A program made the translations under genes and the position numbers. This document shows, piece by piece, positions 1 through 11,247 of a stretch of DNA of 11,247 bases. Positions within the stretch are counted from its first letter, which is position 1. Each line of letters opens with the position of its first letter. The stretch covers positions 1 through 11,247 of the forward strand of contig QOAV01000156.1 of assembly GCA_003972845.1 (NCBI GenBank). Direction: 5' to 3'. This DNA is from Gammaproteobacteria bacterium. Lineage in GTDB: Bacteria; Pseudomonadota; Gammaproteobacteria; QOAV01. The notes beneath the pieces were generated by a model. It did no database searches. It had not been told where the DNA came from and worked only from the letters and a program-made list of their open reading frames with translations.

Positions 1-1
1 A

Positions 2-190
2 ATGAACCACGAATGGGATAATGCACTTGCGGAGAGATGATTCAGAAACTTTAAAACAGAGCGGATGCCCAGGCAAGGCTACAGCAGCTTTGCCTCTGCA
101 AAAACCGATATCGCAGCCTTTGTTCACCAGTAAAATTACTGCCGTGGTCAGAGCTATAATGTTTATGCTACGCCCGTTGCCGCTGACGGT
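2..190 (+). pseudogene. IS3-family transposase (OrfB) C-terminal remnant
   Basis: One frame reads WDNALAER, then KTERMPRQGYSSFASAKTD, IAAFV and SYNVYATPVAAD. This is the C-terminal pattern of IS3-family OrfB DDE transposases: the last catalytic Glu lies in the DNAxAE motif, and an HSYNGYxxPVAAE-like block follows. The frame has in-frame stops at 38-40 (probably TGG to TGA after the AER) and at 131-133, so it cannot make a transposase. The upstream part lies outside the window. I could not define the terminal inverted repeat of the element. Family assignment is good; the exact IS is unknown. Confidence 0.75.
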
Positions 191-243
191 TTAATTGCGC
201 CAATGGGCTGGTACGGAAATTATGAGCCACTACATGGCGCGCC

Positions 244-265
244 CGGTTATGACGGGTTATAACCG
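244..265. repeat. Short inverted repeat, 7-bp arms
   Basis: CGGTTAT (244-250) and ATAACCG (259-265) are exact reverse complements around an 8-base loop. It lies between the IS remnant and the 3' end of the VOC gene. It could act as a weak hairpin downstream of that gene, or be part of the degraded IS end. No T-run follows on the minus strand, so a canonical intrinsic terminator is not supported. Confidence 0.3.
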
Positions 266-276
266 CTTCGCTGCGA

Positions 277-831
277 TCAATTCTGGTCTGTTTTTGACGG
301 CAAGCTGCGCATGGCTTCCTTCCAGGGCGGCTTTTCCCATTCGGGGTGCTTCTTCCATATCTGTTTCAAAACCCGCAGCCAGCGACGGAAAGAAGACACG
401 GAAGGAATCGACGGGGTATGCGCCAGCTCGAAGTGAATGCCGGTCATGGGGTCATCGAAAAATACCGCGTAATAGCCGGGCGTATAGGTCGGATATTCTG
501 CCGGAGCATCGGTAACGACCACCTTGTTCTTCAGCAGAAAAAACTCATGGAAATCGTCGATTTCCTGTCGGCTCCGCGCCCAGAGCGCAATATGGTGTAT
601 GCCGGTGGCGTGGTCGGCATGATGTAATTTGCCGCCGGTTTTGGCGGGCTGAATACCGATATAGCTGTGAAAAAAAGGGTATCTCGCCATGTAATAGGTG
701 GAGCGATAATCAATGTCCAGCGTCCAGAAACTCTTGTAACCCAGCCAGCCAAACATCTTGTCAAAGAATTTTATCGACTCGTCATAATCGAGAACTGAAA
801 ATTCCACATGGTGAACACCCTTCCATCGCAT
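277..831 (-). CDS. VOC superfamily (glyoxalase/dioxygenase-fold) protein
   Basis: A 184-residue protein with the paired beta-alpha-beta-beta-beta modules of the vicinal oxygen chelate superfamily. Module 1 begins GVHHVEFSVLDYDESIKFF (5-23). Module 2 begins GIHHIALWA (78-86) and ends in DDPMTGIHFELAHTP (126-140). The likely metal ligands are a His of the first HH (7-8), His80 and Glu135, the usual H/H/E spacing positions of the fold. A basic, Trp-rich tail of about 40 residues (150-184) follows the domain. The start at 831 is chosen because an AGGAGA ribosome binding site lies just upstream; the frame stays open to 972 but that extension has no such site. It is divergent from the Crp/Fnr gene at 979. 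The substrate cannot be told: the superfamily includes glyoxalase I, extradiol dioxygenases, fosfomycin resistance proteins and many uncharacterised members. Confidence 0.87.
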   Translation of the reverse strand: MRWKGVHHVEFSVLDYDESIKFFDKMFGWLGYKSFWTLDIDYRSTYYMARYPFFHSYIGIQPAKTGGKLHHADHATGIHHIALWARSRQEIDDFHEFFLLKNKVVVTDAPAEYPTYTPGYYAVFFDDPMTGIHFELAHTPSIPSVSSFRRWLRVLKQIWKKHPEWEKPPWKEAMRSLPSKTDQN

Positions 832-978
832 TGAATCTCTCCTTGTTTTGATGAATACTCGATCGGACAAAAGCCGATGGCTTCCAGTAACAGCTTTAAG
901 TCGGGTCAATCGGCCGTTCGGCCTTGTAAGCTCCCATATGCCGCTTCCGATTCTCCGTTTCTTGCAGAGCACAAATTG

Positions 979-1710
979 ATGAACAGCGACTCGCCCCTGT
1001 TTCTTTATTACAAAAGCCGGCTCGCCAGATCCCCCATTTTTCGCGGCCTTTCAGATGACGTCCTGGCCGACATGCTCGAATGTTTTCGACCTGTCACATG
1101 GAACAAGGGCGTTGCAACTGACCCTGCCTCACTGGTTGATCGATTTCACCTGATTATCAATGGCCGGGTCAAAATGGAATATGTCGACGCAACATCGGGA
1201 AACTGGGTCACTCTTTTTGTGTTGGGACCGGGTGACGGCTTCGATATCGTCTCTCTGCTCGACGGAAAACCGCACGAGGCTTCTCCAGTCGCTCTGGAAG
1301 ATGTGCAGCTACTCAGCGCTCCCACCGAGAAAGTACGCGAATGGATCAGCCGCCACCCTGATTTTAACCGCAATTTTTTGCCTTACCTGGGCGAAAGAAT
1401 GCGCAAAATGGAGGATCTGGTGGCCGATCTTGGCTTGAAAGACACCATCACCCGCCTGGCCCACCTGATACTCCGCCACACCGTAGAAAAACCTTCAGCC
1501 GATGAAGACGCGCACCCGGTAAAACTGATTCATGACCTCACCAACGAATCACTCGCGCACATGATTGGCTCCACCCGTCAGGCGGTGAATCGCCATCTGC
1601 AGGAACTGCGCAAGAAGGGCATCCTGGACAGCCACCCCGGACATCTTGTGGTCAGGGAACTGGAAGCCTTGAAAAAGCAGGCGGACGCTTACCTTTCTCA
1701 TCGAAGCTAG
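979..1710 (+). CDS. Crp/Fnr family transcriptional regulator (copy 1)
   Basis: A 243-residue regulator. Residues about 18-120 form a cNMP-binding-like beta-roll (FRGLSDDVLADML at 21-33, LIINGRVKMEYVD at 58-70, GPGDGFDIVSLLDG at 83-96), followed by a dimerisation helix (about 130-170). A winged HTH follows at 187-216; its recognition helix carries STRQAVNRHLQEL (198-210). In the Crp alignment the contact residues R-E-x-x-x-R become R-Q-x-x-x-R. There is a single cysteine (C35), so an FNR-type [4Fe-4S] sensor is excluded. The RxA-type cAMP-contact motif of Crp is not evident, so the signal is unknown. Start ATG 979 is chosen because homology begins there and the paralog at 8329 starts in the same place; the frame is open from 877 but the extension looks non-coding, and the RBS (GCAGAG) is weak. 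It converges with the DUF3096 gene 22 bases away. I infer it binds the CTGTCA-N6-TGACAG palindromes in this window. Confidence 0.92.
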   Translation: MNSDSPLFLYYKSRLARSPIFRGLSDDVLADMLECFRPVTWNKGVATDPASLVDRFHLIINGRVKMEYVDATSGNWVTLFVLGPGDGFDIVSLLDGKPHEASPVALEDVQLLSAPTEKVREWISRHPDFNRNFLPYLGERMRKMEDLVADLGLKDTITRLAHLILRHTVEKPSADEDAHPVKLIHDLTNESLAHMIGSTRQAVNRHLQELRKKGILDSHPGHLVVRELEALKKQADAYLSHRS

Positions 1711-1732
1711 GAGTCTGACTTTCCGCACCCTG

Positions 1733-1882
1733 TCAGATCAGCGGCAACAAGCCGATCATGCCAAACAGAATCAGGTAAAAAGCCACGATATAATTGAGCA
1801 GCTTGGGCCAGATCAGAATAGCTATACCGGCCAGCAACGAGATCAGCGGTGGGCCGATCATCATGAAATCTACATCCATCAT
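1733..1882 (-). CDS. DUF3096-like 49-residue membrane protein
   Basis: A 49-residue protein starting MMDVDFMMIGPPLISLLAGI. Almost the whole chain is hydrophobic: one span at about 9-24, WPKLLNY at 25-31, and a second span at 32-49 (IVAFYLILFGMIGLLPLI). This fits the small DUF3096 family, whose members have a PLLSLLAGxxILxxPxLLNYIVA-type core. An AGGAGA ribosome binding site sits seven bases upstream of the first ATG. It is the last gene of the minus-strand operon, 20 bases after the DUF4010 gene. Function unknown; the structure suggests a two-span or hairpin inner-membrane peptide. Confidence 0.82.
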   Translation of the reverse strand: MMDVDFMMIGPPLISLLAGIAILIWPKLLNYIVAFYLILFGMIGLLPLI

Positions 1883-1902
1883 TTTTATGTCTCCTGTAAA
1901 AG

Positions 1903-3192
1903 TTAAAACAACAAACCCCAGGCAATGGTCAACAACCCCAGAGCCAGCAACATCAACGACACCCGCCCACTGCTCCTGCGACCGCCCAGAGTCAGCGCAT
2001 ACAGCGCCTTGAGCAAATCATTGCTGCCGGCCGCAATGATGATCGCGCTGACCAGTTGTTGCGTGGTGGCCACCGCGTAATGGCCGCTGAGAATGGAAAG
2101 CACGAACGGGTCGATATCGGTAAAACCGACACCGAAGGACAATATATTCAGCCCGGTGTCGCCAAAACGGGAAATAACCTGTTGGGTAATGACCATCATA
2201 ACCACAAACAACAGGGCGAACAGCAGGGCAATTCCCAGCTCCAGCGGGTTGGAACGGCCAAGATCGGGAGAAATATCATCTGATTTTCCGGTTTTTCTGT
2301 CCAGGAACACGGCGCCGCCAATGGCGATGGCGCTGAACAACAGCATGGGCAGCGCCGCACGCGGTAACAGGTTGGCATTCATGATGGCGATCAAAACCAG
2401 CAGGCGCAGATACATCATACCCGACGCGGCAAGAATTCCCGCCTCGATAGCCGGGTCAGGGTTTGGCAGATCATGGCTTTTACGCGCCAGCACCACCGTT
2501 GCTGCCGTGCTGGAATACAGGCCGCCCAGCAAACCGGTAACCAGATAGCCCTGTCGTTTCAGCACATATTTTTTAAGAATATAACCGGCGTAGGAGATCG
2601 CCGAAATGACCACCACGGCCATCCATATCTTGAACGGCGACGCCGGTATCCACGACGATATGGCGTGATTCGGCAACAAGGGAAGGATAACGCCGGACAC
2701 CAGCAGGAATTTGGCCAGTGTGGTGATTTCCCCCGGCTCCAGCGCCTTGATGAGCTGCTGATTCAGCGACCGCGCGCTCAGGGTGAACACCACCGAAACG
2801 AACACCAGTACCAGAAACCAGGCGGGCATCAGAACCGCAACAGGCCCATATGCGTAAACAATCAGAGAAATCAGTGGTTGCAGCAGACCGGACTGGCCTG
2901 CGTTCAGTTTATGGTGATAAAACACGGCAAAAAACAGCGTGAGCGCCACCATGCCCGCCAGAAACAGGTGGAAACTGGCATCCAGCGTGTACAGCACAAA
3001 CCCGAGTATGGCGATAAAGGTAAAGGTGCGGCTGGAGCCAAATTTGCGGGTAGATAAACCGGCTGTCTCGTTGTTCTTCTGAGTCAGGTAGCTGCGAAAT
3101 TCAAGCCCGGTAAGAAAACCAAATACCGCCACCAGGGCAAAATGAAACCAGACCTGGGACGCCAGTTCGCCGATCAATGTATCGTAGTTCAT
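1903..3192 (-). CDS. MgtC/SapB-like, DUF4010 family integral membrane protein
   Basis: A 429-residue polytopic membrane protein. The N-terminal span contains FLTGLEFRSY (26-35), matching the glycine/LER signature of MgtC/SapB-like proteins. About ten more hydrophobic segments follow. The conserved DUF4010 block is YVLKRQGYLVTGLLGGLYSS (209-228) followed by TAATVVLARKS. Late blocks include FGVGFTDIDPFVLSI and a final span ending in ALGLLTIAWGLLF. Length and order match full-length DUF4010 proteins. The role is not established; MgtC itself modulates ATP synthase and Mg2+/acid adaptation in enterobacteria, but that should not be transferred directly. The start at 3192 has a GGAG element about nine bases upstream. 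It lies 16 bases after the permease stop and 20 bases before the DUF3096 gene, so it is almost certainly co-transcribed with both. Confidence 0.9.
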   Translation of the reverse strand: MNYDTLIGELASQVWFHFALVAVFGFLTGLEFRSYLTQKNNETAGLSTRKFGSSRTFTFIAILGFVLYTLDASFHLFLAGMVALTLFFAVFYHHKLNAGQSGLLQPLISLIVYAYGPVAVLMPAWFLVLVFVSVVFTLSARSLNQQLIKALEPGEITTLAKFLLVSGVILPLLPNHAISSWIPASPFKIWMAVVVISAISYAGYILKKYVLKRQGYLVTGLLGGLYSSTAATVVLARKSHDLPNPDPAIEAGILAASGMMYLRLLVLIAIMNANLLPRAALPMLLFSAIAIGGAVFLDRKTGKSDDISPDLGRSNPLELGIALLFALLFVVMMVITQQVISRFGDTGLNILSFGVGFTDIDPFVLSILSGHYAVATTQQLVSAIIIAAGSNDLLKALYALTLGGRRSSGRVSLMLLALGLLTIAWGLLF

Positions 3193-3208
3193 GCCCTGCT
3201 CCGCGCGC

Positions 3209-4543
3209 CTACGACGATTTCAGGAACAGCCGGCGTTTGCTGAACAGCAGCTCCGCCGCCACCACGAACAGATAGGTGATTCCAATCCAGTAAAGGCTCT
3301 GACGTGACGATTGCCACAAATACGCCATCAAAGTTGCCCAGGAAGCCAGACAAAGCAGCAGCCCCACCAGCATGCCGCTGCTGTTGCCACCCACGGTTTT
3401 GCGCAAGCGCCACGCGGACAGATTGATGGCGGCGAAGATCAGCAAAAAGGTGGAACTGGCAAATGACGAAATGATGGTCAGGTTTGCCGCATTGACAAAA
3501 ACCAGCGTCGCCGCCGTAATGATCATCAGACTGGCCCAGGGAATATTGTTCTGCTTGCGCATGAAGCCAAAAACACCGGGCAGCGCATCTTCGGTGGCCA
3601 TCACCTTGCCCAGGCGAGCGGTGCCAAACATGGTGGCGTTGATGGCCGAAGCAGTGGAAAACAGCGCCGCCAGACCAATCAGCAGATAACCCGCCTGCCC
3701 GAGGAAGGGCCGCGCTGCTTCCGCCAAGGCATATTCGCCATATTTTTTTACTTGCTCCGGAGTCAGGTTGCCAACGGCAACCAGCGATACCAGTACATAA
3801 ATGAAAATGGTAATGCCGATGGACCACACAATACCGCGCTTCAGATTGCGTTCGGGCTTTTCCATTTCATTGACGGCGTTGGGAATCAGCTCAAAACCTT
3901 CATAGGCGACGAAAATCAGCGCCGCGCCCATGAGCACGCCCAGCCCGCCCTTGTTGAATATGGGCGTCAAATGGTCAGGGTTCATGTAAAACAGGCCGAT
4001 GACGGCGAACAGCCCCAGTATCAGCACCTTGACGGTCACTATCAGCAATTCGCTGGAGCCGCTGGCCTTGACGCCATACAGATTGATGGACAGAAAAACC
4101 AGCAGCACCAGCGATTCCAGCAAATGATGCACCGGTATACTGGCGCTATTGTCACCACCGAGCATGGCCGCGCCATACACGCCGAAAGTGTAGGCATACA
4201 GGGCCATCGTTCCCACATAACCCACCAGCAACAGCCAGCCGCCGATGCCGGCAATATTGCGATTGCTGAAAGCACGTTCAAGGTAGGTAAAACTGCCGCC
4301 ATCCGACTGGAACGTCAGACCCAGACGCGCGTAGGACAACCCGGTCAGCAACGCAATAATCCCGCCCAGCGCAAACGCGATGGGCGCGGCGTGACCAGAC
4401 TGCGCCATGGCCAGACCCAGCACGGAAAAAATACCGCCGCCCACCATGCCGCCAACGCCCATGGCGATGACCTCTTTCAGAGTCAGGCGTTCATTTCCAC
4501 TCCCCGGGGTGGAACCAGCTTGATCGGCTTTTCTGTTATGCAT
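3209..4543 (-). CDS. APC superfamily amino-acid permease
   Basis: A 444-residue, roughly 12-span transporter of the amino acid-polyamine-organocation superfamily, acting in the inner membrane. After a short hydrophilic N-terminus, LTLKEVIAMGVGGMVGGGIF (20-39) is the TM1 substrate-binding signature with the unwound GGGIF. SYARLGLTF (70-78) is in TM2-TM3. FVAYEGFELI (211-220) followed by NEMEKPERNLKRGI (225-238) is the characteristic TM6 and following loop. The start ATG at 4543 is preferred because GGGGAGA lies five or six bases upstream; an in-frame ATG at 4561 lacks good spacing. The substrate is not deducible, but amino acids or a polyamine are likely. In amino-acid-dependent acid resistance systems such permeases act as antiporters and can be found near HdeD-like DUF308 proteins, as here. 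No decarboxylase or glutaminase gene is present in the window to support that role. Confidence 0.93.
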   Translation of the reverse strand: MHNRKADQAGSTPGSGNERLTLKEVIAMGVGGMVGGGIFSVLGLAMAQSGHAAPIAFALGGIIALLTGLSYARLGLTFQSDGGSFTYLERAFSNRNIAGIGGWLLLVGYVGTMALYAYTFGVYGAAMLGGDNSASIPVHHLLESLVLLVFLSINLYGVKASGSSELLIVTVKVLILGLFAVIGLFYMNPDHLTPIFNKGGLGVLMGAALIFVAYEGFELIPNAVNEMEKPERNLKRGIVWSIGITIFIYVLVSLVAVGNLTPEQVKKYGEYALAEAARPFLGQAGYLLIGLAALFSTASAINATMFGTARLGKVMATEDALPGVFGFMRKQNNIPWASLMIITAATLVFVNAANLTIISSFASSTFLLIFAAINLSAWRLRKTVGGNSSGMLVGLLLCLASWATLMAYLWQSSRQSLYWIGITYLFVVAAELLFSKRRLFLKSS

Positions 4544-4568
4544 GTTTTCTCCCCATTGCATGGTGACA

Positions 4569-5165
4569 TCAATCCTTCTTTAGATTGGAGCCAATGACAA
4601 ACAACGCCCAGCCGTCAAATATCAGGCTCACGCCCACATAAATCCCCAGCATGAAGATGGAAGTCTCCGGCCAGCCGAAGAAAAAGATGATGGCAAGCAG
4701 AATATCGATAATGCCATTGACCACCATCCAGCCCCAGCCTTTTTCCGGCTTCCTGCGTCGCGCCCAGGTAAAGCTGCTGACGGCATCAAACGTCAGGTAG
4801 ACGCCAAGGAAGATGACCAGCGCAGCTACGCCCGGGAGCGGGAAAGCCACCAATACCGCACCCGCCGCCAGCAACACCAGTGATTTCATCCAGCTCATGG
4901 CGTCACTGCGTTCCGACCTGGCGGTATGAATCCCCCATAGGATGCCGCCGGCGATAAATAACCCGGCGACCGCACCTTCAGACACCAGCGACAACAATTC
5001 GGGCATAACCAGGCCCAATACACCCAGCAGCATTAACAAAACACCGATGAGAGTCGAATGCGGGCCAAAATACTCCAGCTCTTTCTTGATGATTTTCCGA
5101 CTGACCGATGCGCTCAGCGGAGCGTCCTGCTTTTCATCATTTCCTGCGGTTTGTTGTTGTTTCAT
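4569..5165 (-). CDS. HdeD-like DUF308 membrane protein (copy 1)
   Basis: A 198-residue protein with a charged N-terminal tail (1-30) and six hydrophobic segments at about 38-55, 65-80, 93-109, 112-131, 145-164 and 168-191. Conserved blocks are FLGVYLTFDAVSSF (119-132), KGWGWM (142-147), GWPETSIFMLGIYVGVSLIF (164-183) and DGWALFVIG (184-192). These are typical of DUF308, whose best-known member is the E. coli acid-resistance membrane protein HdeD. Start ATG 5165 has a GAGGA site seven bases upstream; the longer open frame to 5258 is not supported. It is the first gene of the minus-strand operon (25 bases before the permease). It is a clear paralog of the protein at 6310, sharing KGWGWM, GWPxTS and LFDG/IFDG. 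A Crp-type palindrome and a possible promoter lie 160-220 bases upstream. Confidence 0.9.
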   Translation of the reverse strand: MKQQQTAGNDEKQDAPLSASVSRKIIKKELEYFGPHSTLIGVLLMLLGVLGLVMPELLSLVSEGAVAGLFIAGGILWGIHTARSERSDAMSWMKSLVLLAAGAVLVAFPLPGVAALVIFLGVYLTFDAVSSFTWARRRKPEKGWGWMVVNGIIDILLAIIFFFGWPETSIFMLGIYVGVSLIFDGWALFVIGSNLKKD

Positions 5166-5321
5166 TACAAATCCTCGCGAGTATTCAGTTGATGTATAAC
5201 GACTTGTTTCTTCGGCTGTCTCAACCGCGCTGAAGCCTGCTATGAGCGCGGCAACCATGGCATTGCCCGCGCCCGACGTTGATGCCGCTGCCGCCGGGTT
5301 GAGCGTGAGGATGGCAATATT

Positions 5322-5351
5322 GATATATCGGCCGCCACAATACTATTTCAA
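5322..5351 (-). promoter_or_regulatory. Possible sigma-70 promoter for the DUF308-led operon
   Basis: On the minus strand TTGAAA (5351-5346) is followed, after 18 bases, by TATATC (5327-5322). A transcript would start near 5315 and carry a leader of about 150 bases before ATG 5165. The palindrome at 5366-5383 would then be centred near -60, close to the class I Crp position of -61.5. The match is moderate and rests on position and sequence only. Confidence 0.4.
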
Positions 5352-5365
5352 ATGTTTTCCGCAGA

Positions 5366-5383
5366 CTGTCATGTGAGTGACAG
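5366..5383. promoter_or_regulatory. Crp/Fnr-type operator palindrome (site A)
   Basis: CTGTCA-TGTGAG-TGACAG has six-base arms that are perfectly inverted around six bases. It shares both arms with the site at 5866 and is closely similar to those at 6226 and 7519. It lies upstream of the DUF308-led minus-strand operon and just ahead of the MBL remnant on the plus strand, so it could have served either. The spacing to the operon start (about 210 bases) differs from the other three sites. Confidence 0.6.
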
Positions 5384-5415
5384 CCTGAGGAAAAAATGCC
5401 TGACACACTCTTTCC

Positions 5416-5791
5416 GGCAAGGACCCATTTCTCCTGCGGGGACTGCATTTCACCCGTGAAACGGCTGAATCCATTGCTCTGAATAAAGTCAGCGGCGCGG
5501 TCATCATGGCGGGTTCCAGCATGTGCACCGGCGGGCGCATTCGCCACCATTTACGGCATAGTATTTGTGACAACCGCAATGTCATCGTCTTTGTCGGGTA
5601 CGCTGGCGAGAGGTATTGTCGATGGCGCCAGACAAGTGTGCATATTCGGCGAAGAATACGCCGAATATGCCGACGTCTACACCATCTGCGAAATCTCGGC
5701 GCACGCCGATCAGTCCGAACTGCTGGCGTGGCTGGAACATACCGGCAATCCTGACAAGACTATCCCGGGGACACATTCGGTAGATTGCTGA
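5416..5791 (+). pseudogene. MBL-fold/beta-CASP RNA-nuclease-like C-terminal remnant, frameshifted
   Basis: From about 5416 one frame reads GKDPFLLRGLHFTRETAES, then IALNKVSGAVIMAGSSMCTG and GRIRHHLRH, up to VIVFVGY (about 5600). From about 5605 the next frame continues TLARGIVDGARQVCIFGEEY, then CEISAHADQSELLAWLEHTG and NPDKT. Joined, these match the beta-CASP and final MBL segments of RNA-processing metallo-beta-lactamases (GSGMCTGGRIxHHL, VGFQAxGTLGRxIVDGA, SAHADQxELLxWL). Between GY and TLAR a few codons typical of the family are missing together with a frame change, so a small deletion near 5601-5606 is likely. The N-terminal MBL half with the HxHxDH site is absent, and a stop at 5401 closes the frame. 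The intact family is usually about 450 residues. Further coding-like sequence (TVLKPVLGDGYQW, DPVEITIALSFK) runs in frame 1 to about 5880 with a stop inside; I do not recognise it. Confidence 0.8.
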
Positions 5792-5865
5792 ACAACACCA
5801 CCGTGCTGAAACCAGTGCTGGGTGACGGATACCAATGGTGAGACCCGGTAGAAATCACCATCGCA

Positions 5866-5909
5866 CTGTCATTCAAGTGACAGATGTGGCTCGGCCCGCA
5901 TATTATCGT
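5866..5909 (+). promoter_or_regulatory. Crp/Fnr-type operator (site B) with class II-like promoter
   Basis: CTGTCA-TTCAAG-TGACAG occupies 5866-5883 with perfect six-base arms (centre 5874.5). If the centre is at -41.5, the -10 hexamer falls at 5904-5909, which reads TATCGT, and the start point at about 5916. An overlapping alternative -10, TATTAT, lies at 5901-5906. The centre is 72.5 bases upstream of ATG 5947, so the leader would be about 31 bases. This suggests class II activation of the 64-residue protein gene, and perhaps of DUF308 copy 2 by read-through. Confidence 0.6.
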
Positions 5910-5946
5910 GGAAAACACATCACTACCCAACGCAGGAGACATGAGC

Positions 5947-6141
5947 ATGAACGAAACCATCACAAAAACCTACCAGTCGGAAGAAGCGCTGAAAAACGTT
6001 TGGGAAGATCTGGTCGCCACCGGCATGGAGCAGGAACAGATATTCCTCGACAAGAAGAACAATCAGGTAAGAGTCATCACCCCGAAGGAAACCGAGGCCG
6101 AAGTGCTGGAAATACTTGTGCGCCACCAACCCATCGATTGA
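5947..6141 (+). CDS. Small 64-residue protein, YflT-like or ACT-like single module
   Basis: A 64-residue soluble, acidic protein beginning MNETITKTYQSEEALKNVWE. The predicted order is strand (3-9), helix (11-25, SEEALKNVWEDLVATG), strand (30-36, EQIFLDK), strand (39-45, NQVRVIT) and helix (47-60, ETEAEVLEILVRH). This resembles one module of the proteins that include YflT-type heat-induced stress proteins. The first half echoes the N-terminus of the protein at 7455 (strand, then an A-rich helix ending in G, then acidic residues and a hydrophobic strand). ATG 5947 is chosen over ATG 5941 because AGGAGA (5934-5939) is then seven bases away rather than one. Codon use and strong RBS support a real gene. 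Family assignment is tentative and no function can be named. Confidence 0.75.
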   Translation: MNETITKTYQSEEALKNVWEDLVATGMEQEQIFLDKKNNQVRVITPKETEAEVLEILVRHQPID

Positions 6142-6225
6142 GACGACAGCACCCGCCGTTCAGCTCGGCAAAGCGCAGGGACGCGGCTTCGCAACGAAAA
6201 CCGATGGCCCGCCAAATCACACAAA

Positions 6226-6243
6226 CTGTCACGCAAGTTACAG
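6226..6243 (+). promoter_or_regulatory. Crp/Fnr-type operator (site C)
   Basis: CTGTCA-CGCAAG-TTACAG matches sites A and B except for one base in the right arm. Its centre (6234.5) is 75.5 bases upstream of GTG 6310, three bases more than for sites B and D. The hexamer at the expected -10 position (6264-6269, CAAAGT) is a weak match, so this promoter would depend more on an activator or use another start point. Confidence 0.55.
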
Positions 6244-6309
6244 ACCATTCTCGCGGGAAAAGGCAAAGTCGGCTTTTCATTGAATGGCATAACGTCAGGA
6301 GAAAACAAC

Positions 6310-6894
6310 GTGACAAACGACAACGCTACCGACAAGGCGGAAACCTTGCGCCATCTGGCCGACCTCACCAAAGCGATTCCACATTTCGGCCGGGATTCCA
6401 TCCTTCTGGGCATTTTACTGGCCGTCCTTGGCGTGACAGGCATTTTCCTGCCTCAGCTCATGTCTCTGGAAACATCCATTTTCATCGGCAGTCTGTTCCT
6501 TGTCGGCGGATTGTTCTGGATCATCCATTCCTGCAAATACAGCCGCAAAGACTGGGGAGACTGGCTCAAACCGGTTGTATTGCTGATCGCTGGCGGTCTG
6601 ATGCTGTTCTATCCGTTGAGCGGTATCGCCGCTATCGGCCTGTTGCTGGCCATATACCTGTTGCTGGATGCATTCAGCAGCTTTGCCATGGCGCGTACGC
6701 TGCACCCGCAGAAAGGCTGGGGCTGGATGGCGACCAACGGCGTCATCTCACTGGTGCTCGCTCTGCTGTTTCTGATTGGCTGGCCCGCCACTTCGCTGTT
6801 GCTGGTTGGCCTGTATGTGGGGATCAGTCTTTTATTTGACGGTCTTGCCCTGATCTTTATCGGCATCATGCAGAAAGGAAAAAACGAATCCTGA
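6310..6894 (+). CDS. HdeD-like DUF308 membrane protein (copy 2)
   Basis: A 194-residue, six-span membrane protein: hydrophobic segments at about 30-48, 57-74, 88-101, 104-123, 139-158 and 162-187. Conserved blocks include LLAIYLLLDAFSSFAMAR (112-129), KGWGWM (135-140), GWPATS (157-162) and LYVGISLLFDGLALIFIG (168-185), each matched in the protein at 4569-5165. The start is a GTG at 6310 with AGGAGA (6297-6302) seven bases upstream. The same frame can be read from a TTG at 6280, but the RBS would then lie inside it. The gene has its own operator-like palindrome (site C) and follows the 64-residue gene by 168 bases. HdeD-type proteins are linked to acid resistance in enterobacteria; here the role is inferred only as membrane stress. 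Confidence 0.9.
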   Translation: MTNDNATDKAETLRHLADLTKAIPHFGRDSILLGILLAVLGVTGIFLPQLMSLETSIFIGSLFLVGGLFWIIHSCKYSRKDWGDWLKPVVLLIAGGLMLFYPLSGIAAIGLLLAIYLLLDAFSSFAMARTLHPQKGWGWMATNGVISLVLALLFLIGWPATSLLLVGLYVGISLLFDGLALIFIGIMQKGKNES

Positions 6895-7092
6895 ACAGCC
6901 AAAGCCGCTGGCTATCCACAAATAACCGGGCCAGGCGTCCAGTGACGGCGCCGAGACCGGTTTGCCATTGACGCCACATTGTTAAAATCGACTGGTTCCC
7001 CGCCGCAATATTTCGTGTCACCCTCGGCCAGGCCGGCAAGCCATACACTGAATTGGCGCACTTGTTATCAAAGCGCGCCCTTTCTGACATGT

Positions 7093-7455
7093 TCAGAGTC
7101 TGGCCGGTTGTGGCGGCGCATTGAAATGCAAAGACACATCAGCGTGTTTGGTTTTTTCCAGATGACTGCAGGCATGGTCGACCTGGGTATGGTTGCCCGA
7201 TATGATCACCAGAAAGAAACCGCCAAAAACCAGACACTTGTAGCAATGCAGATTGGCTTCCTGTACGCCCAGCAAGGGCAACTCATCATCCAGCATTTCC
7301 AGACCCTGCGCGGCGACGAGGCCTTCCTGCACATGCTCGCCGATCAGAGAAATACTTTTTGCGTCTACACCAACATCAAGCAATCGATCGATCGCCTGCT
7401 TCGCATCCCGGTACCGGATAAACACCGCGATACAACTGCTCGCCTGTTGAATCAT
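7093..7455 (-). CDS. YflT-like (general stress protein 17M-type) small protein
   Basis: A 120-residue protein. The N-terminal module CIAVFIRYRDAKQAIDRLLD (8-27), followed by VGVDAKSISLIG (28-39), has the strand-helix-strand pattern of heat-induced stress protein YflT and related GSP-17M domains, in which a strand is followed by an (A/E)xxAIxxLxxxG helix. The C-terminal block FLVIISGNHTQVDHACSHLE (81-100) resembles the second module (a (V/I)SG strand, then a helix). The glycine-rich hydrophobic segment usually between the modules is short here (KCLVFGGFF, 73-81), so a full membrane span is doubtful. Start ATG 7455 is the first in frame; AAAGG is directly adjacent and GGCGG lies further upstream, so the RBS is not ideal. 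It has its own palindrome (site D) upstream and converges with DUF308 copy 2. Molecular function unknown. Confidence 0.78.
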   Translation of the reverse strand: MIQQASSCIAVFIRYRDAKQAIDRLLDVGVDAKSISLIGEHVQEGLVAAQGLEMLDDELPLLGVQEANLHCYKCLVFGGFFLVIISGNHTQVDHACSHLEKTKHADVSLHFNAPPQPARL

Positions 7456-7492
7456 CCTTTAGCCGCCTTTTCCGTCCCGTCCCTTTCGGGCA

Positions 7493-7536
7493 AGCATATG
7501 AACGGCGTCTGGCGCAAACTGTCACCTGGGTGACTT
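7493..7536 (-). promoter_or_regulatory. Crp/Fnr-type operator (site D) with class II-like promoter
   Basis: On the plus strand 7519-7536 reads CTGTCA-CCTGGG-TGACTT; one arm is perfect and the other differs in its last base. The centre (7527.5) is 72.5 bases upstream of ATG 7455, the same distance as for site B. With the centre at -41.5 the -10 hexamer on the minus strand falls at 7498-7493, reading TATGCT, and the start point at about 7486, giving a leader of 31 bases. Confidence 0.6.
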
Positions 7537-7579
7537 TTCCGAGTAAAGAAATCGGTCTGCCCACTGGGCGGCCAGCCGT

Positions 7580-8329
7580 TCAACCCGCTTGTGAATATTG
7601 CCTGCCCAGGTCGTCAGCGTGCCGCCGAAGCTTTCTCAGATCATCGATGATGAGATGATGGTTTTCATAATGCAGAACGCCATCCCTCTTCATCGACTGT
7701 AAATGCCGGTTTACCACCTGGCGCGCAGAGCCGATCATTCTGGCCAGTTCTTCGTTGGATAGATCATGCAATAAATCCACATCCAGCCCGTCGGCAACAT
7801 CGTCAGAGGGCTTGCTGTCAACAGTGGCATAGCGCAGGATCATGCGCGCCAGCCGGGCGTGCGTATCGTACAGGCTGATATCCTCCACCAGCGCCTCCCG
7901 CAAGCGTATCTGCCTGCCCAGATAGGGGAAGAGATTCCGGTTGAATTCAGGGTGTTCGCTGACCCACTGACGCACTGCTTCCACAGGTGCTGATATCAGT
8001 TTGACATCATCCAGGCTGGTGGGAATCACGGGGTTTTCCTTGCCATCCAGTAGACTCAGCACGTCATACACATCGCCTTCGCGCAAAATCATCAGAACCA
8101 CTTGCTTGCCGCTACCGGGGTTCACCTGCGTCAGTTCCAGACGCCCGTCCAGAATCACATAGAAACGCCGGTTCGCCAGCCCACTATCGCGAATCACGCC
8201 CTTGTTCCAGGATTCAAAGCGGAAAGATGCCAGCATATCGTCAAGCATATCCAGTGACAGACTGTTGAATAACAATGTCTGTGCGAGGCGGTGACGGCAG
8301 GTTTTGTACAGCGGCAGACTGTTTTTCAT
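7580..8329 (-). CDS. Crp/Fnr family transcriptional regulator (copy 2)
   Basis: A 249-residue paralog of the regulator at 979. The beta-roll spans about 18-120 (FYVILDGRLELTQVN at 56-70, REGDVYDVLSLLDG at 83-96). The linker HPEFNRNLFPYLGRQIR (126-142) matches HPDFNRNFLPYLGERMR of copy 1. The winged HTH is at about 189-218 with recognition helix SARQVVNRHLQSM (201-213), nearly identical to copy 1 (R-Q-x-V-N-R-H-L-Q). One cysteine only (C11), so no FNR-type cluster, and no clear cAMP-contact motif. Start ATG 8329 has CAGGATC upstream at good spacing; the frame stays open to 8377 without one. The near-identical recognition helices suggest both proteins read the same operator, here inferred to be CTGTCA-N6-TGACAG. 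The stop lies 44 bases from site D. It may be an independent sensor, or one of the two may modulate the other by heterodimerisation or competition. Confidence 0.92.
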   Translation of the reverse strand: MKNSLPLYKTCRHRLAQTLLFNSLSLDMLDDMLASFRFESWNKGVIRDSGLANRRFYVILDGRLELTQVNPGSGKQVVLMILREGDVYDVLSLLDGKENPVIPTSLDDVKLISAPVEAVRQWVSEHPEFNRNLFPYLGRQIRLREALVEDISLYDTHARLARMILRYATVDSKPSDDVADGLDVDLLHDLSNEELARMIGSARQVVNRHLQSMKRDGVLHYENHHLIIDDLRKLRRHADDLGRQYSQAG

Positions 8330-8401
8330 CACGATCCTGACCACGCGGCTTGATAGCCCGAAAAAACTGACGGGCACGGTTTATTTTCATAATGCGCCTA
8401 A

Positions 8402-8430
8402 TATATTTCTATTACATTAAGAAAAATCAA
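8402..8430 (-). promoter_or_regulatory. Possible promoter of the second Crp/Fnr gene
   Basis: On the minus strand TTGATT (8430-8425) is followed after 17 bases by AATATA (8407-8402), in a markedly A+T-rich stretch (about 8385-8450) upstream of ATG 8329. The match is moderate and other overlapping hexamers are possible. No CTGTCA palindrome is seen here, so autoregulation through that site is not supported. Confidence 0.35.
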
Positions 8431-8678
8431 ATACAGAAAAATGTACAAGCATTACGGCAAAAAAACATGTCCGCGCAGGGGGGCTTTTTCCGGGATTTTC
8501 GTATTTTTCAGCTGAAATACCACGTAATACCACTTCCGCGGCTGGCCGTGAACGCCCGCTTGCGCGCCCGTCAACACCGTCTGCCTCATGAACAAAATCG
8601 CACAGAGAGAAAAACCCGGTGAAAGCGGTCGCCGCACAGAGGACGTCATGCGCGTACAGATGTTAAAAACTCATATCG
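8431..8678. other. Intergenic stretch without a supported gene
   Basis: Between the second Crp/Fnr gene and the promoter of the DedA operon. Short open frames exist (for example 8588-8791, plus) but have no recognisable domain and no convincing ribosome binding site, and the latter runs over the palindrome and start of the next gene. I see nothing else in this stretch. Confidence 0.6.
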
Positions 8679-8707
8679 TTGCAAAGCAAGGTAAGCTGGG
8701 CGATAGT
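8679..8707 (+). promoter_or_regulatory. Possible sigma-70 promoter of the DedA operon
   Basis: TTGCAA (8679-8684), a 17-base spacer and GATAGT (8702-8707), with a start point near 8714. The 18-bp palindrome at 8737-8754 would lie at about +24 to +41, a position expected for a repressor operator or a leader hairpin. Confidence 0.4.
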
Positions 8708-8736
8708 GCGCTGAAAACACACCCGGCCAATATCAG

Positions 8737-8754
8737 TTTGACACGGGTGTCAAA
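8737..8754. promoter_or_regulatory. 18-bp perfect palindrome ahead of the DedA operon
   Basis: TTTGACAC-GG-GTGTCAAA has eight-base arms that are exact reverse complements. It ends one base before the GGGAGG ribosome binding site (8756-8761) of the small gene at 8770. The half-site order (TGACA then TGTCA) is the reverse of the CTGTCA-N6-TGACAG sites, so a different DNA-binding protein, or an RNA hairpin controlling access to the ribosome site, is more likely. Confidence 0.55.
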
Positions 8755-8769
8755 CGGGAGGTTCATGCC

Positions 8770-8892
8770 ATGTCAGCCGAAATCACATTGATATTCATCG
8801 CTACCGCCGGCTTCATGCTGGCAAAGTGGTTGCTGTTCGAACCGGTTTGTCCACCGCCAGTGAACCGGGCCGCGCCCGGTTTCGGAAGTTAA
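8770..8892 (+). CDS. 40-residue single-span membrane peptide upstream of DedA
   Basis: A 40-residue peptide: MSAEITLIFIATAGFMLAKW is a hydrophobic helix of about 20 residues, followed by LLFEPVCPPPVNR, a proline-rich end with one cysteine (C27), and a short tail ending GFGS. GGGAGG (8756-8761) is eight bases upstream of the ATG. The stop is four bases from the GTG of dedA, and the dedA RBS (GGAAG) lies inside its last codons, so translational coupling is likely. I do not recognise a family. An alternative ATG at 8765 leads only to an eight-residue frame. It may be a small accessory subunit of the DedA protein, a membrane-stress peptide or a leader peptide. Confidence 0.65.
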   Translation: MSAEITLIFIATAGFMLAKWLLFEPVCPPPVNRAAPGFGS

Positions 8893-8896
8893 CAGC

Positions 8897-9502
8897 GTGT
8901 CGGCACAGGAACTGCTCCACTACCTGAAAACCCTGGAGTTCGGGCCGTGGGCGGCATCCGGCATCGTGGTGCTGTTTTTTCTCGAATCGGCGCCATTCAC
9001 CGGCTTGTTCCTGCCCGGGATTTTTCTCATGGTCGCGCTCGGCTCCATCGTGCAGGCGGGCTATGTCGACTTCACGGATGCGATACTGTACGCCAGTTTT
9101 GGCGCGATTCTTGGCGATAGTGTCGGCTACTGGCTGGGCAGGCTGGGCGCAGATTCCGGCATAGTCGCCAGATCCTTGCGCAAAAACAGCAGCAAGCATG
9201 CTCGCATCAATCAGCTACTCGAACGCTACGGCACAATCGCGGTGTTTCTCGGGCGCTTCGCCTGGCTGGTTCATCCGCTCGTGCCGCTGGCGGCGGGTGT
9301 CAGCCGCATCAAACCCGTCTGGTTTTATCTCGCGGACACGCCCGCCGTCATCATATGGGTATTGTTGTATGGCGCTGTCGGCCACTTCGCCACGGGATTG
9401 GCGCGCGCACGAACACTGGAGTTTTTCATCGGTCTGGGTATTGTCGTTGTTGTCGCACTGGTGGTGTTGCTGGTTCGTCATTTCAGGCATCAGCAGACAT
9501 GA
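8897..9502 (+). CDS. DedA/SNARE-associated family membrane protein
   Basis: A 201-residue inner-membrane protein of the DedA family. Signatures in order: FFLESAPFTGLFLPG (27-41, the E-x-x-P-F-x-x-x-x-P-G re-entrant motif), GAILGDSVGYWLGRLG (69-84, the GDxxGYxxGR motif), and GRFAWLVHPLVPLAAGVSRI (119-138, the GRFxxxxRxxxPxxAG motif, with H at the position where many members have R). Two further spans follow (about 143-167 and 175-193). DedA proteins are linked to lipid-carrier flipping (undecaprenyl phosphate, phosphatidylethanolamine), to membrane potential and to antimicrobial-peptide tolerance. The start is GTG 8897 with GGAAG eight bases upstream. The stop overlaps the start of the phospholipase D-like gene (ATGA), which implies coupled translation of two envelope-lipid genes. 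Confidence 0.92.
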   Translation: MSAQELLHYLKTLEFGPWAASGIVVLFFLESAPFTGLFLPGIFLMVALGSIVQAGYVDFTDAILYASFGAILGDSVGYWLGRLGADSGIVARSLRKNSSKHARINQLLERYGTIAVFLGRFAWLVHPLVPLAAGVSRIKPVWFYLADTPAVIIWVLLYGAVGHFATGLARARTLEFFIGLGIVVVVALVVLLVRHFRHQQT

Positions 9503-10554
9503 CAGGCGCCGCAAACATCAATGCTCTCTTGCCGCCCGTCGTTTTTCACCTGGCGACGATACTCGGCGCGCTTCTGGCGCTGCTGCTGGTATCTCGAATT
9601 CTGCGCGACCCGCGCATGCCGGCGGCGACCATGGGATGGCTGCTGATTATTCTGCTGGCGCCCTTTGTCGGTATCCCGCTGTATCTTTTTTTCGGTCAGA
9701 GAAAAATCAGGCATCTGCTGAATCGCAAAGGGAAAATGGATTTTCCCGACACGCCAGACACCGGCCATCACCCACTGAACTCCCTGCTGGTTTCTCTTGG
9801 CATTCCGTCCTCCAGTGACGGCCATCGTGTGGTTTTTCATGCTGATGGCCGCGAAGCATGGGGCGATCTCGTGTCTATGCTTCAAAACGCCCACAACAGC
9901 ATCGACATCGCCATGTTCATTCTGGCGCCAGACAGCGTTGGTGAGGAAATCCTGAGCATTCTGACGCAGAAAGCCCGACAGGGCGTCAAAATCCGCTTGT
10001 TGCTGGACGGCGTTGGCTCGTTCGCCCTGCCCAAGAAGCGCTTGCGACCGCTGGCAAAGGCAGGCGGCGACGTCGCCTGGTTTATCCCGGTGCTGCACAG
10101 GCCATTGCGCGGCAATATGAATTTGCGCAACCACCGCAAAATCATCATCGTCGATGGCGACGCCGTCTGGACCGGCGGACGCAATATTGAACGCGCTTAC
10201 CTTGGGCCGCACTGCCCCGACAATTGCTGGGTCGATCTGAGTTTTGTGCAGCAAGGCCCCGGCGTTCTGACTTATCGGGCAATATTCGAGGCTGACTGGC
10301 GTTTCTCCAAAGGTCTGAATCCGGATTTTGAAATGGATTTTCCACCCGTGCGCACATACGGGCAGAGCCGTATTCAGGTGACGCCTTCCGGCCCCGACGT
10401 GCAGGATGATCCGATTTATGCCACCATACTCAGCGCCTTTTTTGAAGCCCAACAACGCATCATGATCGCCACGCCCTATTTTGTCCCCGACAACAGCGCG
10501 CAGGAAGCGTTGCGACTGGCAGCGTTGCGCGGCGTCGAGGTGGATTTGCTCGTC
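9499..10554 (+). CDS. Phospholipase D family, cardiolipin synthase-like; truncated at the 3' end
   Basis: The recognisable part is about 352 residues. Two N-terminal spans (about 13-34 and 44-66) end in PLYLFFGQRKIR, the PLDc_N region of bacterial cardiolipin synthases. The first PLD domain follows, with NHRKIIIVDG (211-220) containing H212, K214 and D219 of the HKD motif and GGRNIERAYLG (226-236) after it. The second domain begins (YFVPDNSAQEALRLAALRGV, 327-346, then EVDLL), but similarity ends there, before the second HKD. Intact enzymes need both HKD motifs and are about 480 residues. The frame stays open to the window edge, but beyond about 10554 it is the complement of another gene and does not look like PLD protein. 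It starts with ATG 9499 inside the dedA stop. Cardiolipin synthases condense phosphatidylglycerol into cardiolipin at the membrane. As it stands, this copy would be inactive unless the junction is an assembly error. Confidence 0.88.
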
Positions 10555-10557
10555 GAG
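10549..10557. other. Junction of two truncated genes (rearrangement or assembly chimera)
   Basis: The plus-strand PLD gene is recognisable up to the Val codon at 10552-10554. The minus-strand R2-like gene is recognisable down to the PWLDE codons at 10549-10560. The shared stretch CTCGTCGAG is itself an inverted repeat (CTCG-T-CGAG). Leucine codons switch from mainly CTG to CTC or CTT at this point. Confidence 0.7.
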
Positions 10558-11247
10558 CCATGGGAAGGGGGAAGAGGCATGGTGGAATTGGAGTGGGAGT
10601 CCGCAGGCGGAGAGGCGGTGGTCGGCGAGGTATTCGATGTAGGTGGAGAGGGTGTCGGGGTCGAGTCCGGCATCGGCGACGGGGAGTGTGGAGATGAGGT
10701 CTTGCTCAAGTTTGACGCAGGCGGTCATGTGGGTGCTGAGTTCTTGTTGGAATGCAGGTGTCCAGACATCGGGGTTCTCTTCGCGCATTTCGTAGAGGAG
10801 TTTGTTGAAGAGGGCGATGCGGTAGGCGGTGTCTTGGTGGAGCTTGCTGAGGATTTTTCCTGTGCCGGGGAGTTTGTTTTGGGCGGCAAGGGAGAAGAGG
10901 GATGCCCAGAGGGAGACGAATTGGGTGCCTTCCATGCACTGATTGATGAGGAAAATGTTGCGGGCAAGTGCTTGTTTGTTTTCCGTGGTGGTGGTGTCTG
11001 TGGAGCGAGTGATGGTGGAGAGGTTGGCGGTAAGGTATTGCTCCTTGGCTACAATGGAGGGGGCTGCGGCGAGGGCGGCACATTCTGTGGGGTCAATGGC
11101 GAGGGTGCCGTGGAGGTAAACGAGGATGTCGCTGCGGGTGTTTTCCTCATGAACGAAGCGCCCGAAGACGAGTTTGAGTTCGGGAGCGGTGAGGAGGTCG
11201 CGGATGGTGTAGAGATTGGAGGAATGGAAGAAGTCTTGGGACTGCGC
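10549..11247 (-). CDS. Class I ribonucleotide reductase small subunit (R2)-like protein, partial at both ends
   Basis: About 233 residues, open at the window edge. Counting from 11247: NLYTIRDLLTAPELK (11-25), FGRFVHEENTRSDILVYL (28-45), then the long helix CMEGTQFVSLWASLFSLAAQ (104-123), NKLPGTGKILSK (124-135), LHQDTAYRIALFN, ENPDVWTPAFQQEL, YIEYLADHRL, and finally SSPFPWLDE. This order and the NPFPW-type C-terminal motif are those of R2/NrdB, the ferritin-like radical-generating subunit of class I ribonucleotide reductase. Compared with E. coli NrdB from memory, E115 and E204 match E35 and E106, and D237 matches D139. But H118 is R38, Y122 is L42, E238 is T140 and H241 is R143; the E204-to-238 spacing of 34 is preserved exactly. 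A normal di-iron tyrosyl-radical cofactor is therefore unlikely. Leucine is coded by CTC or CTT with no in-frame CTG seen, unlike the rest of the window. The C-terminal tail is lost at the junction. Confidence 0.8.

Follow-up and report, generated by a model that had tools for sequence, protein, structure and literature searches.

Four TGTCA-N6-TGACA palindromes in a gammaproteobacterial contig as probable operators of a class II regulon of Crp/Fnr proteins

We analysed contig QOAV01000156.1 (assembly GCA_003972845.1, Gammaproteobacteria bacterium, QOAV01; positions 1 to 11,247), which we call the window and which comprises 11,247 nucleotides. It carries genes for two Crp/Fnr regulators (A and B), two DUF308/HdeD-like membrane proteins, a permease, a DUF4010 protein, a 64-amino-acid protein and a YflT-like protein, the remains of a beta-CASP metallo-beta-lactamase gene, and four palindromes of the type CTGTCA-N6-TGACAG (Table 1). 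A preliminary description of the window had proposed that these palindromes define a local Crp/Fnr regulon of small envelope/stress proteins whose regulators read TGTCA instead of TGTGA. We found all four palindromes where it had placed them; the distances of 72.5, 75.5 and 72.5 bases from the site centres to the starts at 5947, 6310 (a GTG codon) and 7455 are right, as are the two -10 hexamers that it had set in the register of a palindrome centred at -41.5, namely, those of sites 2 and 4. The six-base arms said to be shared by all four are exact at sites 1 and 2, but not at sites 3 and 4, and a third TAnnnT in the same register, absent from that description, belongs to site 1. Because motif, spacing, -10 register, target families and co-occurrence with the regulator all emerge from comparison with other genomes, the four palindromes are very probably operators of a conserved class II regulon under an uncharacterised, TGTCA-reading Crp/Fnr subfamily.

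Table 1. Candidate operators, predicted promoter elements and genes of the window
Feature	Position	Strand	Remarks
Candidate operator 1	5366..5383	-	CTGTCA-N6-TGACAG, no mismatch; -10 TAGTAT at 5345-5340 (-); predicted start ~5333; matrix 30.2 minus, 26.7 plus
Candidate operator 2	5866..5883	+	CTGTCA-N6-TGACAG, no mismatch; -10 TATCGT at 5904-5909 (+); predicted start ~5916; matrix 29.7
Candidate operator 3	6226..6243	+	One mismatch; weak -10 CAAAGT at 6264-6269; predicted start ~6276; matrix 23.6
Candidate operator 4	7519..7536	-	Two mismatches; -10 TATGCT at 7498-7493 (-); predicted start ~7486; matrix 24.5
Crp/Fnr regulator A	7580..8329	-	cNMP_binding + HTH_Crp_2; recognition helix MIGSARQVVNRHLQ
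Crp/Fnr regulator B	979..1710	+	48% identical to A; recognition helix MIGSTRQAVNRHLQ
DUF308/HdeD-like membrane protein	4569..5165	-	Likely target of operator 1; site centre 209.5 bases from gene start
Permease	3209-4561	-	7-base gap behind the DUF308 gene
DUF4010 gene	1903-3192	-	16-base gap behind the permease gene
64-amino-acid protein	5947..6141	+	Presumed target of operator 2; its relatives likewise stand behind a site (L050, L051, L155)
DUF308/HdeD-like membrane protein	6310..6894	+	Presumed target of operator 3
YflT-like protein	7093..7455	-	Presumed target of operator 4; assigned by clustering with L056 and others
Decayed C-terminal part of beta-CASP metallo-beta-lactamase gene	5400..5790	+	Pieces in two frames; adjoins plus side of operator 1

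We built a matrix of 24 columns, 18 for the site and six for the -10 hexamer, from a training set of 58 regions from other genomes. In the window it peaks only at the four sites; the next place scores 6.0, and the best of 40 Markov-1 random windows scored 13.5. The plus side of site 1 also scores well, yet it has only CACACT in the -10 register, and the promoter at site 3 is weak. When up to three mismatches are allowed, the window holds 11 matches where 4.46 are expected, a number reached by none of 200 shuffles. A genome-wide search, which the preliminary description had proposed as a check against background, gave a divided answer in the window's own genome (1.24 Mb, 55% complete): perfect sites stand out, with three against none for a reversed-pattern control, whereas at up to two mismatches we counted 53 matches (three perfect, four with one and 46 with two) against 34 for the control, so that the loose matches are mostly background. 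One of the one-mismatch sites is at C68:5626, and the two-mismatch matches include palindromes resembling the classical Crp-type TGTGA-N6-TCACA (G000:C134:2985, C60:1932 and C8:10500).

The motif was then counted around homologues of regulator A in named genomes, namely, in 79 loci (0.995 Mb) from the best 80 of 111 candidates. Among the 1024 possible five-base arms at spacer 6, TGTCA ranks first, with 41 sites in 26 of the 79 loci, the second being AAAAA with 19, and at each of the other spacers within 0-14 TGTCA arms form only zero to three sites. All 41 sites lie in 29 loci (0.31 expected there), those with Arg-Gln (RQ) in the regulator at the position of residues 180-181 of CRP; in the other 50 loci, where the 181 position is taken by Thr, Val, His, Lys, Ala, Met or Ile, there are none. 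The CRP-type palindrome TGTGA-N6-TCACA does not occur in the 79 loci, against 41 sites for TGTCA, and the FNR-type TTGAT-N4-ATCAA is not enriched, with three occurrences at spacer 4 in the 29 RQ loci. These counts support the earlier proposal that Crp/Fnr proteins encoded nearby read TGTCA in place of TGTGA. We found no comparable palindrome near the homologues with RT, RV, RH, RK, RA or RM/RI helices. As a separate observation, TGCTA-N6-TAGCA with a -10 hexamer at +30 was counted three times in RH-helix loci of Campylobacterota (14 of L094-L117); the RH subgroup possibly uses it as its operator.

At the level of genomes, we counted 57 copies of the exact 18-mer among 26 genomes that encode an RQ regulator, 23 of which have at least one; the reversed control gave nine. 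By hand count, 34 of the 57 sites share a contig with the regulator locus, and such contigs account for only 0.85 of some 74.7 Mb. In 16 genomes with more distant homologues we found one site against one for the control, while 56 genomes of the class yielded eight sites in six genomes, three of them those of the window's own genome, against two for the control. This distribution indicates that the predicted regulon is densest near the regulator gene, yet extends beyond it. The comparison thus upholds the claim of one regulon, but "local" and "small envelope/stress proteins" were too narrow, since the window's genome adds a class I aldolase gene, a third DUF308 gene and a DsrC-like gene. The first two are behind a site with TAnnnT at +30; the site before the DsrC-like gene has no such hexamer. 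At G000:C27:4281 (L174), GTGTCA-N6-TGACAG stands between the DsrC-like gene and a long open reading frame (ORF) resembling a membrane transporter (a pyrophosphatase by eye). The aldolase promoter, palindrome and TAGAAT, is kept in the congener G001.

A scan of 369 genomes of the class, starting from site plus -10 hexamer and not from the regulator, gave 43 matches in 25 genomes. A close regulator (E up to 1e-25) is found in seven of the 25, the window's genome included, and these seven hold 21 of the matches; among 24 genomes chosen as match-free, one has a close regulator, whose helix is RV. When the genomes were split by strict core, 7 of 11 had the regulator on one side and 1 of 38 on the other (p 2.8e-5); this split was defined after the matches were known, and without it the figures are 7 of the 25 match genomes and 1 of the 24 chosen as match-free. 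Three of the seven repeat assemblies of the RQ-genome count under other names (G205 is G059, G247 is G067 and G314 is G062), and three (G001, G100 and G123) are newly sampled, G001 being a congener of the window's genome. In the new genomes G100 and G123, both of which carry an RQ regulator, the matches precede YfdX genes (in both) and a DnaJ gene (in G123).

In the class II geometry of E. coli CRP, a palindrome with a 6-base spacer is centred at -41.5. We examined this register at 81 sites, comprising 79 exact 16-mers and the two weak sites of the window; 25 of the loci behind them were chosen because they hold the 18-mer and four more hold sites of the window's genome, so that the number of sites at the 18-mer-chosen loci is selected, while the -10 hexamer is not. 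Sixty-four oriented regions were picked by hand for a conserved or plausible target before the -10 was inspected, leaving out sites without a clear target. In 31 of the 64, TAnnnT is at +30 from the centre; the mean for offsets 8-99 is 1.3 and the next best offset has six, and between site and hexamer only a weak T at +25 stands out. Taken blindly, in both directions of all 81 sites, the hexamer is at +30 in 53 of 162 cases (mean 2.4 at other offsets, next 10), on both sides of four sites, on one side of 45 and on neither side of 32. Relative to these -10 hexamers the palindrome is centred at -41.5, and this register at the sites of other genomes, together with the matrix peaks at the sites of the window, supports the class II geometry claimed earlier. 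Like class II promoters of E. coli CRP, the arrangement combines a Crp-type HTH, a 6-base spacer, a centre at -41.5 and overlap with the -35 region. A dimer of one or both Crp/Fnr proteins of the window would bind CTGTCAY-N4-RTGACAG centred at -41.5, replace the -35 element and recruit RNA polymerase, with the -10 hexamer at a distance of 30-35 bases from the palindrome centre, at what would be sigma-70-type promoters activated in the class II manner.

Activation rather than repression is the predicted outcome. The same regulators might instead repress, or activate at some sites and repress at others, since Crp/Fnr proteins are known to do both (PMC545781), and the sites upstream of crp in L055, L062, L064 and L074 have no TAnnnT at +30 towards crp, which gives no sign of autoactivation there. 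However, a -10 hexamer fixed at +30 without a -35 element at the usual spacing, as seen in the 64 oriented regions, is the pattern of an activator, and we regard repression as unlikely.

Both regulators of the window score above the Pfam cut-offs for the Crp/Fnr domains (cNMP_binding beta-roll and HTH_Crp), and all 19 A1 members match both domains. Their recognition helices differ from the R180-E181-R185 of CRP, reading RQ..NR with Gln in place of Glu181 of E. coli CRP. The RQ proteins form one clade of 36 rows (support 99/98) that includes both regulators of the window. In CRP the fourth base pair of TGTGA is recognised by Arg185 (G) and Glu181 (C) (PMC11253593), and the base-contacting residues are also given in Table 1 of PMC12531629. 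Here the fourth base pair of the half-site is C:G and the residue at the 181 position is Gln, and the half-site is probably TGTCA instead of TGTGA because Glu181 is replaced; a Gln fits the reading of a C:G pair, although this is not proof. The case resembles that of HcpR, a Crp/Fnr regulator whose specificity shift comparative genomics tied to the helix residue Arg180, but the sites of HcpR (PMC545781) are TTGTGA-N6-TCACAA or atTTGAccnnggTCAAat, with hcp and frdX as targets.

A different reader of TGTC in the family, such as a sensor of carbon monoxide (CO) of the CooA type, might bind the sites, with the nearby Crp/Fnr genes being mere neighbours. CooA sites, TGTCGGC-nn-GCCGACA with the consensus TGTCGGCnnGCCGACA (PMC545781), share with ours the initial TGTC, the 16-base palindrome and the protein family, and the window's genome has a third, remote Crp/Fnr match (G000:C5). 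On the other hand, the fifth base of the half-site is A here and G in CooA sites, the sites cluster on the contig of the regulator and are often directly behind its gene, and homologue loci without an RQ helix have none. No coo gene was among the target ORFs examined, no genome-wide search for coo having been made. We consider such a reader improbable, more so than repression. More improbable still are RNA hairpins (terminators or messenger RNA stabilisers) or a dispersed repeat element: every site is an 18-base inverted repeat and several are directly behind a gene, but in the 64 aligned regions there is no T run behind the sites and the flanks are not conserved beyond motif and -10 hexamer, and the window has no Rfam match at the gathering score. 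Chance palindromes in one window, to which the near-background number of two-mismatch matches would point, are just as hard to reconcile with the perfect sites, the fixed spacing, the recurrence in other genomes and the matrix scores.

Several observations weigh against our conclusion that the palindromes are operators of a TGTCA-reading subfamily. The 32 of 81 sites with TAnnnT at +30 on neither side are one, and a slight rise at this offset is also seen for unpaired TGTCA half-sites (18 of 1016, mean 10.1, standard deviation 3.6). Three of the 29 RQ loci (L053, L066 and L070) have no site, and the exact 18-mer is absent from the congener G001. In the class scan the reversed control gave 12 matches against the 43, and a close regulator is missing from 18 of the 25 match genomes, roughly as many as the control would produce. 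Finally, since the RQ proteins are one clade, the link between helix and motif is a single evolutionary event and not a repeated correlation: its repeated evolution was considered and rejected, Q being confined to that clade, and the Gln-TGTCA association, as judged from the tree, goes back to one event.

The phosphate-binding cassette for cyclic AMP (cAMP) in CRP reads GEL...R[ST]. When regulator A is aligned to PDB entry 3h3u, which we take to be mycobacterial CRP, GEL...RT becomes DVL...NP; the corresponding stretches are GDVYDVL...ENPV in A and GDGFDIV...PHEA in B, and the NCBIfam CRP model gives the two only 32.7 and 30.8 bits against a cut-off of 266. The replaced cassette residues thus set these proteins apart from E. 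coli CRP, as do the half-site and the Gln for Glu181. No invariant or nearly invariant Cys of the kind that holds the Fe-S cluster of FNR is present in 19 full proteins, the best Cys column being found in 17 of 31 Q-clade proteins (rows cut at BLAST ends). With the cassette lost and no FNR-type cysteines, cAMP or an Fe-S cluster is unlikely, and the ligand is probably not cAMP. A His in the cassette region, mostly followed by Asp or Glu, is present in 30 of 31 Q-clade proteins, the exception being regulator A itself, which has Asn; in regulator A this column corresponds to residue 99 (98 if the initial Met is not counted), and the His could possibly form a new ligand pocket.

Recurrent targets were grouped by clustering, with Pfam run on representatives only, and shadow frames opposite the regulator gene, a cluster of six ORFs, were excluded; cluster sizes count the ORFs beside sites, some of them on the far side. 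YflT-like proteins form the largest cluster, with 21 ORFs, and in 12 of these, including that of the window, the site is at most 450 bases behind the regulator gene; the protein of the window is below the cut-off of PF11181 (E 0.0055). USP and SpoIIAA-USP proteins follow with nine ORFs, DUF308/HdeD with seven (three in the window's genome), YfdX, the 64-amino-acid protein and PDH E1 alpha with four each, DnaJ with three, and class I aldolase and DsrC/TusE with two each, the last besides the DsrC-like gene of the window's genome. Two of the four PDH E1 sites (L150, TAAGAT; L153, TAGAAT) have the hexamer one base nearer, at +29, and that of L159 has no TAnnnT at +28 to +32. An amino-acid permease recurs in L064, L154 and L167; in L154 the homologous gene is served by a separate site, with TAAAGT at +30, while the copy in the window has no site directly before it. 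Targets seen once or twice are a P-type ATPase, TauE, CMD, a phage-holin-4-like protein, DUF302, Hsp20, thioredoxin, carbohydrate phosphorylase and beta-CASP.

The position of TAGTAT makes the minus-strand DUF308 gene the likely target of site 1. The short gaps behind this gene suggest that it may form one operon with the permease and DUF4010 genes, and site 1 most probably drives the DUF308 gene and perhaps the two genes behind it too. An intact relative of the beta-CASP gene in L150 (a contig of the Sedimenticola metagenome-assembled genome of L051) is preceded by a site and TATACT at +30, and site 1 may be an operator that outlasted one of its genes. Elsewhere in the window, at 9499-11247, a gene of the PLD type (PLDc_2) passes into sequence whose minus strand, from about 10561 on, codes for a portion of the small chain of ribonucleotide reductase (PF00268, E 2.5e-25); either the contig end is chimeric or the junction is recent, in all probability.

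The activated set would serve stress and energy economy, comprising DUF308/HdeD, YflT-like and 64-amino-acid proteins here, and elsewhere class I aldolase and perhaps DsrC-like proteins. The low-oxygen lxa locus of Burkholderia cenocepacia (PMC6127331) likewise has a Crp/Fnr protein alongside USP and metallo-beta-lactamase genes and further stress and carbon genes, and by analogy our guess for the signal is low oxygen or energy limitation. The box proposed for Anr in the lxa system, before the cytochrome bd genes, is TTGATCTCGATCAA (PMC9104464), which differs from the motif described here, and our aligned proteins have no conserved cysteine set of the FNR/Anr kind. We found no Crp/Fnr protein with a TGTCA-N6-TGACA motif in the open-access literature, among the matches listed, although one may stand elsewhere, for example in regulon databases. 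That an undescribed subfamily, mainly of Gammaproteobacteria and known from lineages such as Sedimenticola, Thiolapillus, Thiohalobacter and Methylophaga, reads this motif, has given up the cAMP cassette for a pocket with conserved Asp and His that senses a ligand new to the family, and runs an lxa-like programme of stress response and energy economy is a wider proposal that we put forward only tentatively, its being wrong in some part seeming the likelier outcome.

If the four palindromes are operators of this regulon, regulators annotated only as Crp/Fnr family would gain a candidate operator, a promoter geometry and a list of targets, and proteins of unknown function (YflT-like, DUF308/HdeD, YfdX, the 64-amino-acid protein and DUF302) would be tied to one programme. 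The subfamily would also provide a natural case in which a one-residue change at the CRP-181 position is accompanied by a matching change of the half-site.

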